64,000 nucleotides of DNA from the NCBI RefSeq assembly GCF_900099925.1, contig NZ_FNDE01000016.1, positions 1 through 64,000 of the forward strand, in the 5' to 3' direction. Positions 510 through 63,989 of this stretch are shown piece after piece. Within the stretch, counting starts at the first letter, position 1. The number at the start of each line of letters is the position of its first letter. The stretch comes from Aneurinibacillus thermoaerophilus (GTDB lineage Bacteria; Bacillota; Bacilli; Aneurinibacillales; Aneurinibacillaceae). The notes beneath the pieces were generated by a model. The model did no database searches. It saw nothing but the letters and a program-made list of their open reading frames with translations, and was not told the DNA's origin. The position numbers and the translations under genes were made by a program.

Positions 510-796
510 AAAATGCAAATCGAGTGGAGACAATCGGTCTTTTCATTTCATGTCGTTACATAGCATGTACTATGGCCTCTGTTGGCTACAGTATGGACTT
601 TGTTTTGTTTGGTAAACTCATCCAAAGAACGTTGGCCTCCTATGAGGTTCGTTTCGTATTCCTCAGGCCAAAGGTTTGCCGCCGACTTCCTTCAGATTCG
701 ACCTCGAAGTCGACATCCTTGTCTTAAGTTAATGGCTACTACTGCCTTCGCCATTCAGGACTTGAACCCTATAGATGACCCCCATGCCGAGCGCAC
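510..796 (-). mobile_element. Group II intron relic, 5' (domain I) part only
   Basis: On the minus strand this stretch starts with GTGCGC, the group II intron 5' consensus. It carries blocks I recognise from bacterial intron domain I: GGCATGGGGGTCATCTATAG, CAAGTCCTGAATGGCGAAGG, GAATCTGAAGGAAGTCGGCG and ACAAAACAAAGTCC. The 5' end lies immediately after the T-run of the terminator at 798-829, the insertion habit of class C introns. No reverse transcriptase gene, domain V or 3' end is present, so it is a truncated relic. The lower boundary is approximate. The open frames across it are spurious. Confidence 0.75.
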
Positions 797-5726: not shown

Positions 5727-6581
5727 CTATTTTTTCTGCGGCTTTTCGCCAAACCATTTTTCGTAAATCTTGTCATACTCACCGGAAGACTTCAGTTCCG
5801 CGAGCATTTCATTGATCGTTTTCAGCATCTCGGTGTCGCCTTTGCGAACTGCAATACCGTATGGTTCATCCGTAAATAGGCCTCCCACCAGTTTGAAATT
5901 CGGATCTTCTTTCTGCATACCAAGCAGAATGGAGTTATCCGTTGTAAGAGCGTCGCCTTTTTTCGATTTCAGCGCCGTAAACGCTTCTGCATAATTCTCA
6001 TACTCAGCTACTTTCGCCTGCGGAGCTTTTTGGCGAATATTTTTCGCAGAAGTGGAACCTTTCACCGCGATAACCGTCTTGCCATTCAAATCCTGTATGC
6101 CTGTAATCGGAGAATTTTTCGGAACGAGCAAGGACTGGCCTGCTTCAAAATACACATCGGAGAAGTCAACCGTTTTCTTACGTTCTTCCGTAATGGTCAT
6201 AGTCGCGATAATCGCATCAATATCACCATTTTTCAGCATTGGAATACGCGTCTTAGACGTTACTTCTTTCAGTTCAATCTTCGTCTCATCACCCGTGATT
6301 TTTTTTGCTAGCGCTTTCGCTATGTCAATATCAAATCCTTTTACTTGACCATCAACCGGATCTTTCTTGCCGAACAGGTTCGTGTCATACTTTACACCTA
6401 CGATCAGCTTGCCACGTTCTTTCGCCGCGGCTACTGCGCTTTTTTCTGCGCTCCCGTCGCTTGCCGCCGAACCCGCATCCGCTGGTTTGCCCGCTTCCTG
6501 CTTACCGCCGCAAGCCGCAAGCATAACAGACATGACCAGCATAAAAATAAGGCTTAAAATCGATATTTTTTGCTTCACCAT
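5727..6581 (-). CDS. glnH: Amino acid ABC transporter substrate-binding lipoprotein
   Basis: This encodes a 284-residue extracellular solute-binding protein of family 3. It has a lipoprotein signal peptide with lipobox LAAC (Cys24), a low-complexity Gly/Ala/Ser linker, then the domain with VGVKYDTNLFG, FDIDIAKALAKKI, the family motif near IDAIIATMTITEERKKTVDFS, and KGSTSAKNI. It captures a polar amino acid, probably glutamine or glutamate, for the two permeases downstream. The length is normal. Confidence 0.9.
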   Translation of the reverse strand: MVKQKISILSLIFMLVMSVMLAACGGKQEAGKPADAGSAASDGSAEKSAVAAAKERGKLIVGVKYDTNLFGKKDPVDGQVKGFDIDIAKALAKKITGDETKIELKEVTSKTRIPMLKNGDIDAIIATMTITEERKKTVDFSDVYFEAGQSLLVPKNSPITGIQDLNGKTVIAVKGSTSAKNIRQKAPQAKVAEYENYAEAFTALKSKKGDALTTDNSILLGMQKEDPNFKLVGGLFTDEPYGIAVRKGDTEMLKTINEMLAELKSSGEYDKIYEKWFGEKPQKK

Positions 6582-6609
6582 GTAAAACCCCCTTTATAAA
6601 TTGCATAAA

Positions 6610-7338
6610 TTAATGGTTCAACAGGCGACTCAAGAAGATGCGCGCTCGTTCTTCCTTCGGATTTGCGAAGAACTCTTTCGGCTCGCCAACTTCTACAATT
6701 TGCCCGTGATCCATAAACACCACACGATCGGCTACTTCCTTGGCGAATCCCATTTCGTGGGTCACGACTACCATAGTCATGCCCTCTCTTGCCAAGCTTT
6801 TCATCACTTCCAGCACTTCGCCGATCATTTCCGGGTCAAGCGCGGATGTCGGTTCATCAAACAGCATAATCTTCGGCTGCATTGCAAGTCCCCGCGCGAT
6901 TGCCACCCGCTGCTGCTGACCGCCAGAAAGGGCTGAAGGGTAAGCATCCGCTTTGTGTAAAAGCCCAACCTTCTCCAAGTAATAACGGGCCGTCTTTTCT
7001 GCTTCTTCACGCGAAATTTTGCGCACCTTCATCGGAGCAAGCGTAATATTCTCCAACACAGTCATGTGCGGATACAAATTAAAGTGCTGAAATACCATGC
7101 CAATTTCCTGCCGCAACGCATTTAGATTTGTTTTTTTGTCATGAACATTTACGTTATCAACAATGAGCTCCCCACTTGAGATTTTCTCCAAATGATTGAT
7201 GCAGCGAAGCAACGTCGACTTTCCTGATCCGGAAGGACCAATAATCACAACCACTTCCCCTTCGGAAATCTTCAAGTTAATATCCCGCAGCACATGAAAA
7301 TTGCCATAGTACTTATCTACATGGCGAAACTCGATCAC
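6610..7338 (-). CDS. glnQ: Amino acid ABC transporter ATP-binding protein
   Basis: This encodes a 242-residue ATPase with Walker [10 protein letters not shown] (~residues 34-42), the Q loop at [17 protein letters not shown], signature LSGGQQQR, Walker [15 protein letters not shown] and the switch VVTHEM. It closely matches the GlnQ/PAAT family. It starts with GTG after CGGAGG and is the first gene of the operon. The promoter lies at 7395-7423. Confidence 0.93.
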
Positions 7339-58124: not shown

Positions 58125-58922
58125 ATGACAACTCTATCAGCGGAAAAATTAACCATTGGTTACGAGGAACGAATAATTGTTCAAGACCTAAACTTAGAAA
58201 TTCAACCGAATCAAATCACTGCAATTATTGGTCCAAACGGTTGTGGCAAATCGACTATTTTAAAGACAATGGCACGACTGCATCCATCATTATCTGGTGT
58301 TATTTATTTAGATGGAAAAATCATTCATAAGACACCGACAAAAGAAGTTGCTAAAAAGCTGGCAATTCTACCTCAGTCACCAGAAGCACCAAGTGGATTG
58401 ACAGTGTATGAATTAATTTCATATGGACGGACACCTTATCAAACAGGATTTTCACGACTAAGTAAACATGATCGCCAAATGATTGATTGGGCGCTTGACG
58501 TTACTGGATTAACCAATCTCCGAGACCAGTCCGTTGATACTTTATCAGGTGGACAAAGACAACGAGCTTGGATTGCGATGGCTATTGCTCAAGAAACCGA
58601 TTTATTACTTTTAGACGAACCAACAACGTATCTAGATTTGGCTCATCAATTAGAAGTTTTACAACTCCTAGAGAAATTAAATCAAGAAGATGGACGGACA
58701 ATTGTTATGGTGATTCATGATTTGAACCATGCTGCTCGTTTTGCTCATCACATGATTGCGCTCAAGAATGGAAAGATTGTTAAACAGGGAACTCCAGAAA
58801 AAGTAATGACTACAGATGTACTTAAGCAAGTGTTTAATATCGATACAGTGATTGTTACTGATCCTAGAACAGCTAAACCAGCAATGATTTCTTATGATTT
58901 AGTGACATCCTCTCTCCACTAA
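58125..58922 (+). CDS. Siderophore ABC transporter ATP-binding protein
   Basis: This encodes a 265-residue FecE/FhuC-type ATPase with Walker A GPNGCGKST, signature [17 protein letters not shown], Walker B LLLLDEPTTYLDLAHQ and switch VIHDLNHA. Third gene of the permease operon. AGAAGGGATAGCT precedes the ATG. Confidence 0.93.
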   Translation: MTTLSAEKLTIGYEERIIVQDLNLEIQPNQITAIIGPNGCGKSTILKTMARLHPSLSGVIYLDGKIIHKTPTKEVAKKLAILPQSPEAPSGLTVYELISYGRTPYQTGFSRLSKHDRQMIDWALDVTGLTNLRDQSVDTLSGGQRQRAWIAMAIAQETDLLLLDEPTTYLDLAHQLEVLQLLEKLNQEDGRTIVMVIHDLNHAARFAHHMIALKNGKIVKQGTPEKVMTTDVLKQVFNIDTVIVTDPRTAKPAMISYDLVTSSLH

Positions 58923-59107
58923 AGTGAAGAGCTTCCCTGTAGAAGTTCGGGGGCGAGTTGCTCCAGCAGAGATAGTGTCTCTCGACAAGGCCCGTTGTTT
59001 TATTTCCGACCTACTTTTTACGCAGATGTGCCACGGCGATCCTCCTGCCACGATTCTACCTGACAGGTACAAAGTGACAGATAGAGCACTAAAAATAGAA
59101 ACAACTA
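58923..59107. other. Intergenic, no supported gene
   Basis: A 65-codon frame beginning right at the ATPase stop has no ribosome site and resembles nothing I know. The first ~100 bases look richer in GC than the iron genes, so this may be debris of an older insertion. Confidence 0.4.
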
Positions 59108-59364: not shown

Positions 59365-60099
59365 TCATTTTAATAACCTTATAAAATTTCTTTTCAGAAT
59401 ATGAAACATTTCATTTTTCTCTAATTTTTTTATATAAGATAGTTCACTAACTATATTTTCAATATACATTATACTATAAGTATTTCTAGTGTCCTTTGTG
59501 AATGGAGCATCACTTTCAATTAATATTCTGTCTAATGGAATTTTATTTACTATGTCCCTTCCTTTTTTAGTTGTTAACATATCCCCGTTTATAGAAAAAT
59601 AATAATTGTTCTTTATTGCTCGATTCAACTCAGACATATTACCACTATACCAATGTAAAATAATCTTACCATTAAATTCAGCACCAATAATATCTATTAC
59701 TTCTTTTTCTGCTTTCCTAGAATGAATACTTAGAATTTTATTACCGTACTTATTACAAGCTCTAATAATCTTTTCAAAAGTATCAGTTTGTAACAATTTC
59801 GATCTAGATGTGGTTTTACTGAAGTCAAGACCAATCTCACCTATATATCTGCAATTCTCCAACCTGTCAAAAAATAGAGGAATTTGTTCTGGATATTGTT
59901 CTATTAATTCAGGATGTAAACCAAGTGCAAACCTAATATATTTATGTTCACCATACTTTTTCATTGCACGGTCATACAAATATGGTAAATTTGTTACAGC
60001 AATAGTGTATGATTTGTATTGTAAAATATGATTAATAATATTTTTTGTATCCTTATATAAATCCAAATGCATGTGTACATCAAAATAAAATTTTTTCAC
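59365..60099 (-). CDS. qatD: QatD, TatD-family nuclease of the Qat defence system
   Basis: This encodes a 244-residue TatD-type metal-dependent hydrolase. It has FDVHMHLD (His9 and His11), YIGEIGLDFSK (Glu ligand), LSIHSRKAEKEV, ILHWYSGN (His) and IESDAPF (Asp), so all metal ligands of the family are present. It begins 1 base after qatC. In Qat systems QatD is one of four required parts and is presumed to act on DNA. Confidence 0.9.
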   Translation of the reverse strand: MKKFYFDVHMHLDLYKDTKNIINHILQYKSYTIAVTNLPYLYDRAMKKYGEHKYIRFALGLHPELIEQYPEQIPLFFDRLENCRYIGEIGLDFSKTTSRSKLLQTDTFEKIIRACNKYGNKILSIHSRKAEKEVIDIIGAEFNGKIILHWYSGNMSELNRAIKNNYYFSINGDMLTTKKGRDIVNKIPLDRILIESDAPFTKDTRNTYSIMYIENIVSELSYIKKLEKNEMFHILKRNFIRLLK

Positions 60100-60100
60100 A

Positions 60101-61381
60101 CTAATCCTCCAAGAAGGTTTTTAATTCATTCATTCCCCTAATATATAAGTCAGTAAACTTCTCCAAATCCGTTTTTATTGGACCAGCTTTTTGTATATTC
60201 AAAAAAGCGCGTTTCTTATCGAACTTTTTTAACCCTAACATATACGATGAATAATTAACTTTGGCTATGCCTTTACTTGTAAAGTCTACTTCTCTATATC
60301 TTGTATCATCTTTAATTCCAGCTTTTAATATAGCAGCTCTCCTTATCACACACGGTAAACAGTAGCCACAATGGCAAGTATCTGTTTCACCATACAAAAA
60401 TGGGTGAGAACAAGACATTGTATTTATAATATTCTTTCGTAAAAATTCAATATTACTACACCCTTTTATCATTTCACCTTTTGTTTTAAACTGATATGGA
60501 TTCGTTATATTTACATCGAGCTTTAGATTATTTAAAAGTTCTTGAAACATTGATAGGTAATAAGGATGTGTAGTTCTTGTACTACTACTTCCCAATCTTG
60601 AACTAGTAAGTGGAATATTTAACGATATTAAACCATTTTCTGGAACTATCAATTTCACTGTTTTTTTTGAAGAACTAGCAAGAACGACCGCATGACTAAA
60701 AAACATAAACGATCTAGTTCTAGTAGTTTCTTCAACTCCCTTTTTAGCACTAGCATAAAAAGAATAAAAGTTATTTTCCATTAAATTATATTTTTTAATT
60801 AACTTATTTCTAAGTATATCTTGAAATTCTTTTACTCCTTTCCCACCACCATAATGACTTACAAATAAAATATCTCGTTCTAAATTGTCCTCTAATAAGT
60901 CAATTGCTCCTATAAATGAATCTAATCCACCCGAAAACATACAAACTTCATTAAAATCAATTTTATTTTTATTTACTTCTATACTATTCTTGTATTCTTT
61001 TTCTCTCTTAGTTAATTCTCTTTGTCTAAACTCTATTTCCCATGAATCACCACTTAAAAAACATAGCATTTCTTCTAATAAATTTTTATTCTTTACCCAA
61101 GCATTCTTATCTAAGACTGGAATATATAATTTAAAGTTTCTTGTCCAGCAATCATCTGTTGAATCTCTCGGAATAATTCTGTCTGCTCCATAAACAAATA
61201 ACGAAATATATAACATATCCAAAGCTGTTTTAGTAAAAAAATTGGGGAGGTGTAGTAATTTCTTATTCCAAAATGTATATGTGAATATATTATTTTGATT
61301 TATATTGTAATCTATGTAATTATCATTTATTTTAAAACTATCTGCTTCATTGACTCTGCAAAGAATTTTTACTTGGCTCAT
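60101..61381 (-). CDS. qatC: QatC, QueC-like protein of the Qat defence system
   Basis: This encodes a 426-residue protein with an N-terminal extension (~1-140), then a PP-loop ATP-pyrophosphatase domain with MFSGGLDSF (~147-155) as in QueC, and a Cys cluster (C-S-H-P near 322, then TCHCGYCLPCVIRRA) like the QueC zinc site. QueC makes a nitrile on 7-deazaguanine. Here the homologue belongs to a defence operon, and what it modifies is unknown. It overlaps qatB by 4 bases. Confidence 0.9.
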   Translation of the reverse strand: MSQVKILCRVNEADSFKINDNYIDYNINQNNIFTYTFWNKKLLHLPNFFTKTALDMLYISLFVYGADRIIPRDSTDDCWTRNFKLYIPVLDKNAWVKNKNLLEEMLCFLSGDSWEIEFRQRELTKREKEYKNSIEVNKNKIDFNEVCMFSGGLDSFIGAIDLLEDNLERDILFVSHYGGGKGVKEFQDILRNKLIKKYNLMENNFYSFYASAKKGVEETTRTRSFMFFSHAVVLASSSKKTVKLIVPENGLISLNIPLTSSRLGSSSTRTTHPYYLSMFQELLNNLKLDVNITNPYQFKTKGEMIKGCSNIEFLRKNIINTMSCSHPFLYGETDTCHCGYCLPCVIRRAAILKAGIKDDTRYREVDFTSKGIAKVNYSSYMLGLKKFDKKRAFLNIQKAGPIKTDLEKFTDLYIRGMNELKTFLED

Positions 61382-62160
61382 ATATAGACCTCCAATACTT
61401 CATAGCATTCTATATAAATTTGTTTAATTATTGAATCAATACTAGGATCATTATAGTTTAACTTATTAAAAGCAACTTTTTTTAATTTAATGTTTACAGA
61501 TTCCTTTATATATTCTTCTAGTTCTTTCTCTTTATCTAAAGCAACCTGGGAATTCTCTGCGTATTTTTCAAATCTGCTCTGTAAGTCATTTAGCATTCTC
61601 TCAAAAATATAATTACTTACAAATGAAGACATTACTTCGTTGAATATATCATCGTTCATTTTATCTAAAGCATTTATGTCCATATTATTTTCTTCAATAT
61701 ACTCATATAATTGAGATAAAGCTTGAATTGTAGCGTTTTTAGCAACAATATCTTCTTTAGTATTAGAATTAGGAGAAATCACATTTACCAATTCAGATAA
61801 TAAAGCTTCTACACTTTTTCCTTTATATTCGATTTTTAAGCTTTCTAGTGTTTTAATTATGCCTTCGGAGATAATACTAGAAAGAAATCGCCCCAGTTGA
61901 ATATTAGAATTTCTTCCAGAAATAGCTCTATTGGCTGAATTTCTTGCTCCACCAGAGGCCTTAACATAGTTCCTTAATATCCTACTTCTATTATTTATTG
62001 ATCCATTTATATACTGTGACACTACTTTCTTAGTTTCCTGCCATGAGCCAAGAGTTTCCTTAGCACTTTTGTCCAATGATTCCTCATATTCCTCCTCAAA
62101 CCCTTCAGGTAATAAGGGATTTCTATCTTTAGGTCCATTATAAATACTTGAAGTACCCAT
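61378..62160 (-). CDS. qatB: QatB, Qat defence system component
   Basis: This encodes a 260-residue protein of no known fold family. Its N terminus, MGTSSIYNGPKDRNPLLPEGF, fits my recollection of QatB proteins, followed by a basic/serine patch (NRSRILRNYVKASGGARNSANR) and an all-helical acidic C-terminal half. It lies 5 bases after qatA and overlaps qatC by 4. No catalytic motif is visible. Confidence 0.85.
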   Translation of the reverse strand: MGTSSIYNGPKDRNPLLPEGFEEEYEESLDKSAKETLGSWQETKKVVSQYINGSINNRSRILRNYVKASGGARNSANRAISGRNSNIQLGRFLSSIISEGIIKTLESLKIEYKGKSVEALLSELVNVISPNSNTKEDIVAKNATIQALSQLYEYIEENNMDINALDKMNDDIFNEVMSSFVSNYIFERMLNDLQSRFEKYAENSQVALDKEKELEEYIKESVNIKLKKVAFNKLNYNDPSIDSIIKQIYIECYEVLEVYI

Positions 62161-62165
62161 CTATC

Positions 62166-63989
62166 TTACTCCCTTTTCTTAAATTCCTTTTGAATTGCAG
62201 CTGCGAGACTATTATTTTCCTTACTCCATTTATCAACTATTTCTTGGACTTCGCTATGTTTATTTGTATTTTCCATAAAATCCTTAATCAAAGGTAACAT
62301 AGATAAACTAATTTTCTCCCCATGTAAAGAACTTAAATCACTTATAACATTTGTGTATAAAATCTCTTTTGTTTTCCCCCATTCTAGATATGACTTTAAA
62401 ACTTCTTTATCTATTTTAGTTTCACTGATAATTTTTGAAAAAATAGATTGAAGTATTTCGACAGCTTCATAATCATTTACTTCAACAGCCCTTTGAATTG
62501 CTTCATTTCTTGCAGCTTTTGATTTACTTAATAATTTTTCAATTATTTGAATTGCATCCGGACTTAACTGTTCTACACCAAAATTGAGTTTTTCTGATAA
62601 AGATTCTCTTGCAAAATAAAAATACGGTCTAAGATCAACATTAGCCAGTTTAGGTTCGAGATTACACCAATCTTGAACCCATTTATCATCCTTCCAAACC
62701 TTTAATTCATTTTTTTCTTCCATTTCATTATTTTCTAATTGTTCTAAATCAGGGGAGCTGCCTTTCCCTTTAATTTGTAACTCAGCAATTTTCCTAAATA
62801 ACGGGGATTTAAAATATTCAAGCAACATAACTTTAGCAAGAATTTTTCTATCCAATATAATACTTTTATAACTTGCCATTTTTTCTCTCATTACTAATGA
62901 ATTTAAAAAACGTTTACAATGTCTTGGGTTGCCATTTAGTCCATTTGCCAAAACTGAAGATAATTGTTTAGCAATATTTATGCTTTCTTTAACTTTATCA
63001 GCGATATCAGGAAACTTTTCACTAATTAATTGGTATGTAATTGTGAAATCTAGGAAGTTTTCTAGCTTTTTTTGCTTTAAATATTCAATTATCTCTTCAA
63101 ACTCACTATTATTTAAATCCTTTTGAAATAATAAGCATGTAATATAAAACTCTACTTCTCTCGAGTTTAATCTAGGAATTCTAATAGGATACTGAATTAT
63201 CTTTTCTAGATATTCTTTTCCTATATTTATTTGTTGTCCTTCTATTTCATTAAATTTTCTCTTTACTGCATATGCAATATGTCTTTCATCAGCACCTATA
63301 ATAAAAACGGAATTACCAGTAAATAAAAATAATCTAATTGCCTCTAAAGTATCCAAGATGGTATCTGGACTACAACGATCTAATTCATCAATAAATACAA
63401 CCAATCTTTTTATTTTAGTTTCACTTAATAACTTTGAAAAATTACTTTGAAACTCCTTGATATTCTCTCTGATTTCTTTATTATCTAGCTCATCCTTTAT
63501 GGATTGCATAACATCTTCCTTATTGATATCCTTAGTACTCTCACCTAATTTACCAATAACATCTGATATAGCGAAGTCAGCCAAAGTTCCTATACCACCA
63601 GTTAATAATATATCCCCGCCGTATTTCGCAGTCTTTTTTAATAATTTAAATTTGTCCACACTCTTATAAAGGCCAGTTATAAACTTTTTCGCAGTATCGT
63701 TTAGAGATCTTTTTGATTGAATTGTATCTAAAATTGTTCCTATTAATGCCGTTTTCGCATCTTCATATCCTTCAAATAGCCAGCCATTAAATACTAAACA
63801 AACTGTATCATCTTTCGCTTCAAATTCTTTCATACTCATCCTAATTAAACTTGACTTTCCACTTCCCCAGTCACCGTAAACTCCGATACTCGAGGGTAAA
63901 AGCGATTCATCTTCAATGATATCTTTAAGTATTTCTATTAAATAATCAAAGTCTAAAAAGTCTAACTCCGTTTCACTATCCTTCCACAT
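62166..63989 (-). CDS. qatA: QatA, KAP-family P-loop ATPase of the Qat defence system
   Basis: This encodes a 607-residue KAP P-loop NTPase with Walker A YGDWGSGKSSLIR (~38-50), Walker B VVFIDELDRCSPDTI (~196-210), and a helical insert between them containing two hydrophobic stretches (~120-145), where KAP proteins often have membrane helices. It is the first gene of qatABCD. The ATG lies 12 bases from the right edge with AGGG before it, so the coding region is complete but the promoter is outside. The sequence is much more AT-rich than the core genes. Confidence 0.9.
   Translation of the reverse strand: MWKDSETELDFLDFDYLIEILKDIIEDESLLPSSIGVYGDWGSGKSSLIRMSMKEFEAKDDTVCLVFNGWLFEGYEDAKTALIGTILDTIQSKRSLNDTAKKFITGLYKSVDKFKLLKKTAKYGGDILLTGGIGTLADFAISDVIGKLGESTKDINKEDVMQSIKDELDNKEIRENIKEFQSNFSKLLSETKIKRLVVFIDELDRCSPDTILDTLEAIRLFLFTGNSVFIIGADERHIAYAVKRKFNEIEGQQINIGKEYLEKIIQYPIRIPRLNSREVEFYITCLLFQKDLNNSEFEEIIEYLKQKKLENFLDFTITYQLISEKFPDIADKVKESINIAKQLSSVLANGLNGNPRHCKRFLNSLVMREKMASYKSIILDRKILAKVMLLEYFKSPLFRKIAELQIKGKGSSPDLEQLENNEMEEKNELKVWKDDKWVQDWCNLEPKLANVDLRPYFYFARESLSEKLNFGVEQLSPDAIQIIEKLLSKSKAARNEAIQRAVEVNDYEAVEILQSIFSKIISETKIDKEVLKSYLEWGKTKEILYTNVISDLSSLHGEKISLSMLPLIKDFMENTNKHSEVQEIVDKWSKENNSLAAAIQKEFKKRE

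Follow-up and report, generated by a model that had tools for sequence, protein, structure and literature searches.

A QatABCD operon at the edge of the window

The window analysed here is the whole stretch of 64,000 nucleotides that opens contig NZ_FNDE01000016.1 of Aneurinibacillus thermoaerophilus. At positions 59365-63989, it carries four intact, tightly packed genes, all on the minus strand. The first, qatA (62166..63989), encodes a KAP-family P-loop NTPase of 607 aa and is followed by qatB (61378..62160), which encodes the 260-aa partner of QatC with its N-terminal MGTS, by qatC (60101..61381), which encodes a QueC-like ATP pyrophosphatase of 426 aa, and by qatD (59365..60099), which starts with GTG and encodes a TatD-family metal-dependent nuclease of 244 aa. 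The four genes are adjacent in the QatABCD order, with gaps of 5, -4 and 1 bases (qatA-qatB, qatB-qatC and qatC-qatD, respectively). An alternative in-frame ATG for qatA lies 24 nt upstream, at contig position 64013 and outside the window, but the start at 63989 is favoured because it is immediately preceded by a GGAGG Shine-Dalgarno sequence. Coordinates, order, strand and gaps agree with the initial annotation, which had also recognised the QatABCD gene set of Gao et al. 2020 and described its catalytic motifs as intact; both readings hold, as all four families are matched by PADLOC, NCBIfam and Pfam profiles and the Walker A/B, SGGLDS, cysteine cluster and TatD metal-ligand motifs can all be located.

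PADLOC E-values are 7.1e-126 for QatA, 1.6e-29 for QatB, 1.8e-117 for QatC and 2.5e-71 for QatD, and the qatA and qatD products match Pfam KAP_NTPase (2.2e-42) and TatD_DNase (9.5e-47), respectively. NCBIfam scores exceed the curated cut-offs for QatB (119 bits, cut-off 100), QatC (460, cut-off 280) and QatD (257, cut-off 230). QatA, at 480 bits, falls below the NCBIfam equivalog cut-off of 600, which is an annotation threshold and not a biological definition; its membership is nevertheless accepted because the match spans nearly the full length and the PADLOC QatA profile gives 7e-126. QatA carries a Walker A motif (GDWGSGKS) from residue 39 and a Walker B motif (VVFIDELDR) from residue 197, and the QatD metal ligands H9, H11, E88, H126, H149 and D197 are all present. 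The best solved match to this QatD is PDB 3gg7 chain A (2.7e-42), deposited as an "uncharacterised metalloprotein". We take its source to be Deinococcus radiodurans, and since that species carries qatC on a plasmid, 3gg7 may be an unrecognised QatD structure.

QatC combines SGGLDS (residues 150-155, the SGGxDS motif), the Thr pair T268/T270 ahead of His-Pro and four zinc cysteines (324, 338, 341 and 344). The Thr pair belongs to the QatC-specific Thr-x-Thr-x-His-Pro motif, here STRTTHP, and aligns with P. aeruginosa T278/T280, as do the zinc cysteines with their counterparts. The protein matches the crystal chains 9vlk (2.6e-70) and 9zee_B (3.3e-65), and a profile built from seven QatC proteins retrieved, among PDB sequences, only the solved QatC chains (9vlk and 9zee) at E 0.001. 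The QatB profile likewise matches the crystal QatB chains 9vll_A (3e-54) and 9zee_A (2e-51), which a single-sequence phmmer search with the window QatB reaches at 1e-7 and 0.008. This QatB shares no more than 21-33% identity with the other aligned QatB proteins, and its tail reads LLPEGF and does not keep the conserved Trp; the conserved tail positions are P16 and W18 (PMC13279940). Its N-terminal MGTS is invariant in the QatB alignment, and a scripted count finds an MGTS start in 74 of 80 related loci, most of the others being truncated or not assessable. P. aeruginosa Qat defence requires QatB Gly2/MGTS as well as QatC SGGxDS and T278/T280 (PMC13279940), and the residues whose mutation abolishes it (SGGxDS, the T278/T280 equivalents and QatB G2) are all kept here.

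Altogether, the locus is very probably a complete QatABCD anti-phage operon, predicted from its genes and motifs to be functional. A decayed or non-expressed remnant could be imagined from the AT-richness of the operon and its position less than 9 kb from a contig end bearing an IS110-type transposase, but the four reading frames are full-length and retain their catalytic motifs, the genes are closely spaced and a Shine-Dalgarno sequence is present, all of which makes this highly improbable. The complete operon is an ordinary additional member of a known and widespread family.

QatC is distinct from housekeeping QueC

The initial annotation had made its assignment depend on a QatB profile match, which is obtained with both PADLOC and NCBIfam, and on QatC standing apart from housekeeping QueC in a tree. 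A tree built from 91 QatC and four QueC proteins splits them into two groups with full branch support, the window QatC falling with the 90 other QatC proteins. It shares with housekeeping QueC the PP-loop ATP pyrophosphatase core and the Zn-Cys cluster (Pfam QueC 25 bits, cut-off 22) but differs in its separate clade and in its score against the canonical QueC profile TIGR00364 (16 bits, cut-off 150). The CDG pathway is present in the host, with QueD-QueE-QueC genes on contig C46, and because these are separate from qatC, QatC is not the queuosine enzyme of the host. A second host cluster, on C52 (L004, 24216-27848), has the order QueC-QueE-QueD-FolE-QueF, so that the host has two real QueC proteins. 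A housekeeping or DNA-modifying QueC was considered for the PP-loop gene and is ruled out by the scores, the host's own QueC genes and the tree.

The window QatC belongs to a 19-member Bacillota/Bacteroidota clade (support 100), in which its nearest tree relative is a Clostridium MAG protein of 60% identity. The score of QatA below the equivalog cut-off and the 21-33% identity of QatB likewise place the window copy in a divergent Bacillota/Bacteroidota subgroup, as judged from sequence comparison. In each of the 80 related loci retrieved, QatC adjoins other qat genes, and almost every locus has the complete set. The E. coli and P. aeruginosa systems (Gao 2020; 9vlk/9vll, 9zee/9zef) agree with the window copy in gene content and gene order, in having genes that overlap or touch, in the QatB MGTS start and in the QatC SGGxDS, STRTTHP and Zn-Cys motifs; in contrast, the window copy lies on a divergent branch, its single-sequence QatC match starts only at residue 51-53, its QatB tail is without Trp and a restriction-modification (R-M)/Mrr island is attached to it. 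Qat systems on conjugative plasmids of Enterococcus lactis and Vagococcus fluvialis show the same gene order and a QatC 46% identical to that of the window, but they are flanked by HTH, RelE/ParE and IS1216 genes, whereas the window operon is flanked by R-M genes.

Variants occur among the relatives. In Sporofaciens musculi (L026, 3421-5034), qatA is split into several frames, and qatB, qatC and qatD look intact. In three cyanobacterial loci (L041, L042 and L044), qatABC and the qatD-like gene converge rather than being co-directional. The unverified, unannotated record of Listeria phage LM 4-14-1 (L020) contains at 6001-6846 a distant QatC-like stretch, with 28% identity across 70% of the query.

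A defence island and its surroundings

The operon does lie at the right edge of the window, as initially described, but it is not isolated. The contig extends to 72754, and beyond the window, leading away from qatA on the same strand, are a gene for an Mrr-type nuclease (PADLOC PDC-S02, Pfam Mrr_cat), hsdR, hsdS, hsdM and an HTH gene. The Mrr gene is separated from the qatA start by 33 nt, or 9 nt with the upstream ATG. With hsdM-hsdS-hsdR and the Mrr gene running ahead of qatA in the same direction, the operon forms the end of an hsdM-hsdS-hsdR-mrr-qatABCD defence island; the search for further defence genes to the right, which had been suggested at the outset, is thereby answered. An HsdR relative also lies directly upstream of qatA in G293, another genome of the Bacillota (56% identity), and in Pandoraea (L100, 49%), so the pairing is recurrent but not general. 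The Mrr gene was considered as a fifth Qat gene and rejected, as no match to Mrr was found in any related locus scanned. The window copy is one more Bacillota case of a defence family already known, attached here to a type I R-M/Mrr island.

The operon is AT-rich against its neighbours, as had been proposed, with 26-30% GC compared to 34-45% to its left and 33-38% in the R-M genes. The earlier description of adjacent mobile debris stands in part. Some 8.4 kb past the window, the opposite strand carries an IS110-type transposase at the contig end, and a dispersed repeat of about 170 bp (58898-59070), with several 81-90% identical copies in a congeneric genome (G005), lies between qatD and an iron-siderophore-type ABC transporter operon, identified by sequence reading, on the plus strand left of qat; no recognisable transposase was seen in the left flank that was read. 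A search of the genus for an empty site identified none, the flanks not being syntenic. At the far end of the window, the contig opens within a 16S rRNA gene, and a match to group II intron D1-D4-3 comes next (1-145 and 533-713 (-), respectively).

Predicted mechanism

The initial annotation had called the cooperation of a QueC-like enzyme and a TatD nuclease little explained. The 2026 structures and mutants clarify more than that: QatB-QatC is the minimal active unit and is sufficient against some phages, and QatA and QatD affect which phages are blocked (PMC13279940). For the window copy, a mechanism can be proposed by homology with the P. aeruginosa and E. coli systems. QatB and QatC would form a 1:1 complex, in which removal of Met1 would expose QatB Gly2 and the QatB tail would enter the QatC active site. 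QatC, with ATP, would then attach a group to the QatB N-terminus in a reaction of the QueC/Cap9 type, and the modified QatB would block phage growth, the range of phages blocked being changed by QatA, as a DNA-binding ATPase, and QatD, as a nuclease. CDG, the substrate of QueC, is a possible candidate for the attached group.

CDG-pathway genes in QatC-bearing genomes

A total of 54 QatC-bearing genomes were tested for CDG genes. QueD (PF01242) is absent from 16 of a first set of 50 (46 reached via named loci and 4 from the genome set), and in these 16 the QueE profile gives only partial radical-SAM matches below 42 bits, compared to at least 65 bits in nearly all QueD-positive QatC genomes. 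The QueD-less isolates include Sporofaciens musculi, Peptoniphilus catoniae, P. ovalis, Mediannikoviicoccus vaginalis and Faecalitalea cylindroides; three QueD-less isolates are not independent, because they share nearly the same QatC. Even sampling of the phylum (398 members) yielded five genomes with intact QatC, of which two, G293 (98% complete) and G367 (99% complete), are without QueD and QueE. Overall, 18 of the 54 genomes are without QueD, QueE and canonical QueC, the QueC cut-off being exceeded in none of the 18. Of the pathway-negative genomes tested, all but G151, G190 and G191 have TGT; G191 is a Streptomyces without QueE, QueC and TGT and with only a weak QueD-like match. In the even sample, QueD occurs in 146 of 398 genomes (37%), compared to 6 of 19 QatC-bearing Bacillota, which were not evenly sampled (Fisher p = 0.81).

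Pathway absence in the searched QatC genomes looks real. Where assessable, the pathway-negative loci have intact QatB MGTS and QatC motifs, and pathway absence is scattered over the QatC tree, with at least eight forced changes. G283 (L161, C1, 8756-19501) and G367 (L160, C37, 6122-16866), genomes of different families, have in common a stretch of 10,746 bp that contains qatABCD and large serine recombinases; the two copies are 99.98% identical, with one mismatch and one gap, which indicates recent transfer. The pathway is present in G283, where qatB is frameshifted, and absent in G367, where qatB is intact. No precedent for a survey of CDG genes in Qat hosts was found in the literature consulted.

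Which group does QatC attach?

Type IV CBASS provides a control, since enzymes of the Cap9 family reportedly use CDG (PMC13279940, citing Wassarman 2025). Both systems pair a QueC-fold enzyme with a protein starting MG(G/T)S, Cap9 acting on the N-terminal Gly of a CD-NTase; however, Cap9 keeps a Y-x-D-C CDG motif, and its partners are a CD-NTase and a TGT-like Cap10, where Qat has QatA, QatB and QatD. The window operon has no CD-NTase beside it, and its QatC has STRTTHP, not Y-x-D-C. Four genomes of the 398 carry type IV CBASS-like loci (L169, L170, L171 and L172), with Cap9-like scores of 225-276 bits, the Y-x-D-C motif kept, a following putative TGT-like Cap10 gene identified by reading, and then a gene that, like the CD-NTase, has MGGS at or near its start in three of the four. 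QueD is missing from three of these genomes, only G309 being positive. Given that report of CDG use by Cap9, a genome may lack QueD and its enzyme still use CDG, and because the control shows the same absence, gene co-occurrence fails to set Qat apart from CBASS. Missing pathway genes are therefore no proof of another substrate, the question of deazaguanine supply arising for Qat and CBASS alike, and CDG-independence of Qat is not claimed here.

One plausible reading, short of being probable, is that QatC attaches a group other than CDG to QatB Gly2 and that Qat needs no queuosine-pathway metabolite. In the QatC proteins compared, that of the window included, Thr/Thr stands where QueC and Cap9 have the Tyr/Asp pair with which they read CDG (PMC13279940). 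The 18 pathway-less genomes and the similar Streptomyces, their scatter over the tree and the element shared by G283 and G367 point the same way, but the type IV CBASS control fails to discriminate, several pathway-negative genomes are MAGs of unknown completeness, and most keep TGT, so deazaguanine salvage may occur. It is plausible to the same degree that QatC uses CDG like Cap9 and that pathway-less hosts salvage it or carry a conditionally silent system. QatC and Cap9 have their fold, ATP site and N-terminal Gly substrate in common (PMC13279940), which is consistent with CDG use, and deazaguanylation is taken as the proposed QatC reaction (PMC13329287), in which study QatC could not replace QueC in queuosine synthesis. 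The occurrence of Cap9 operons in QueD-less genomes and the retention of TGT fit CDG use as well, but three points count against it: the nucleobase-recognition residues are changed, CDG did not appear in the QatBC crystal although it had been supplied, and introducing the Cap9 residues into QatC (T278Y/T280D) abolished defence (PMC13279940). We know of no CDG salvage route.

QatC could install a CDG-unrelated N-terminal modification on QatB in bacteria without known 7-deazaguanine synthesis, though we would not rate this as probable; if so, it would be a new protein modification used in immunity. The survey of relatives sharpens the question of which chemical group QatC attaches to QatB: intact qat and type IV CBASS operons occur in genomes without a known CDG pathway, and G283 and G367 form a natural pair in which the same qat element resides in a pathway-positive and a pathway-negative host.
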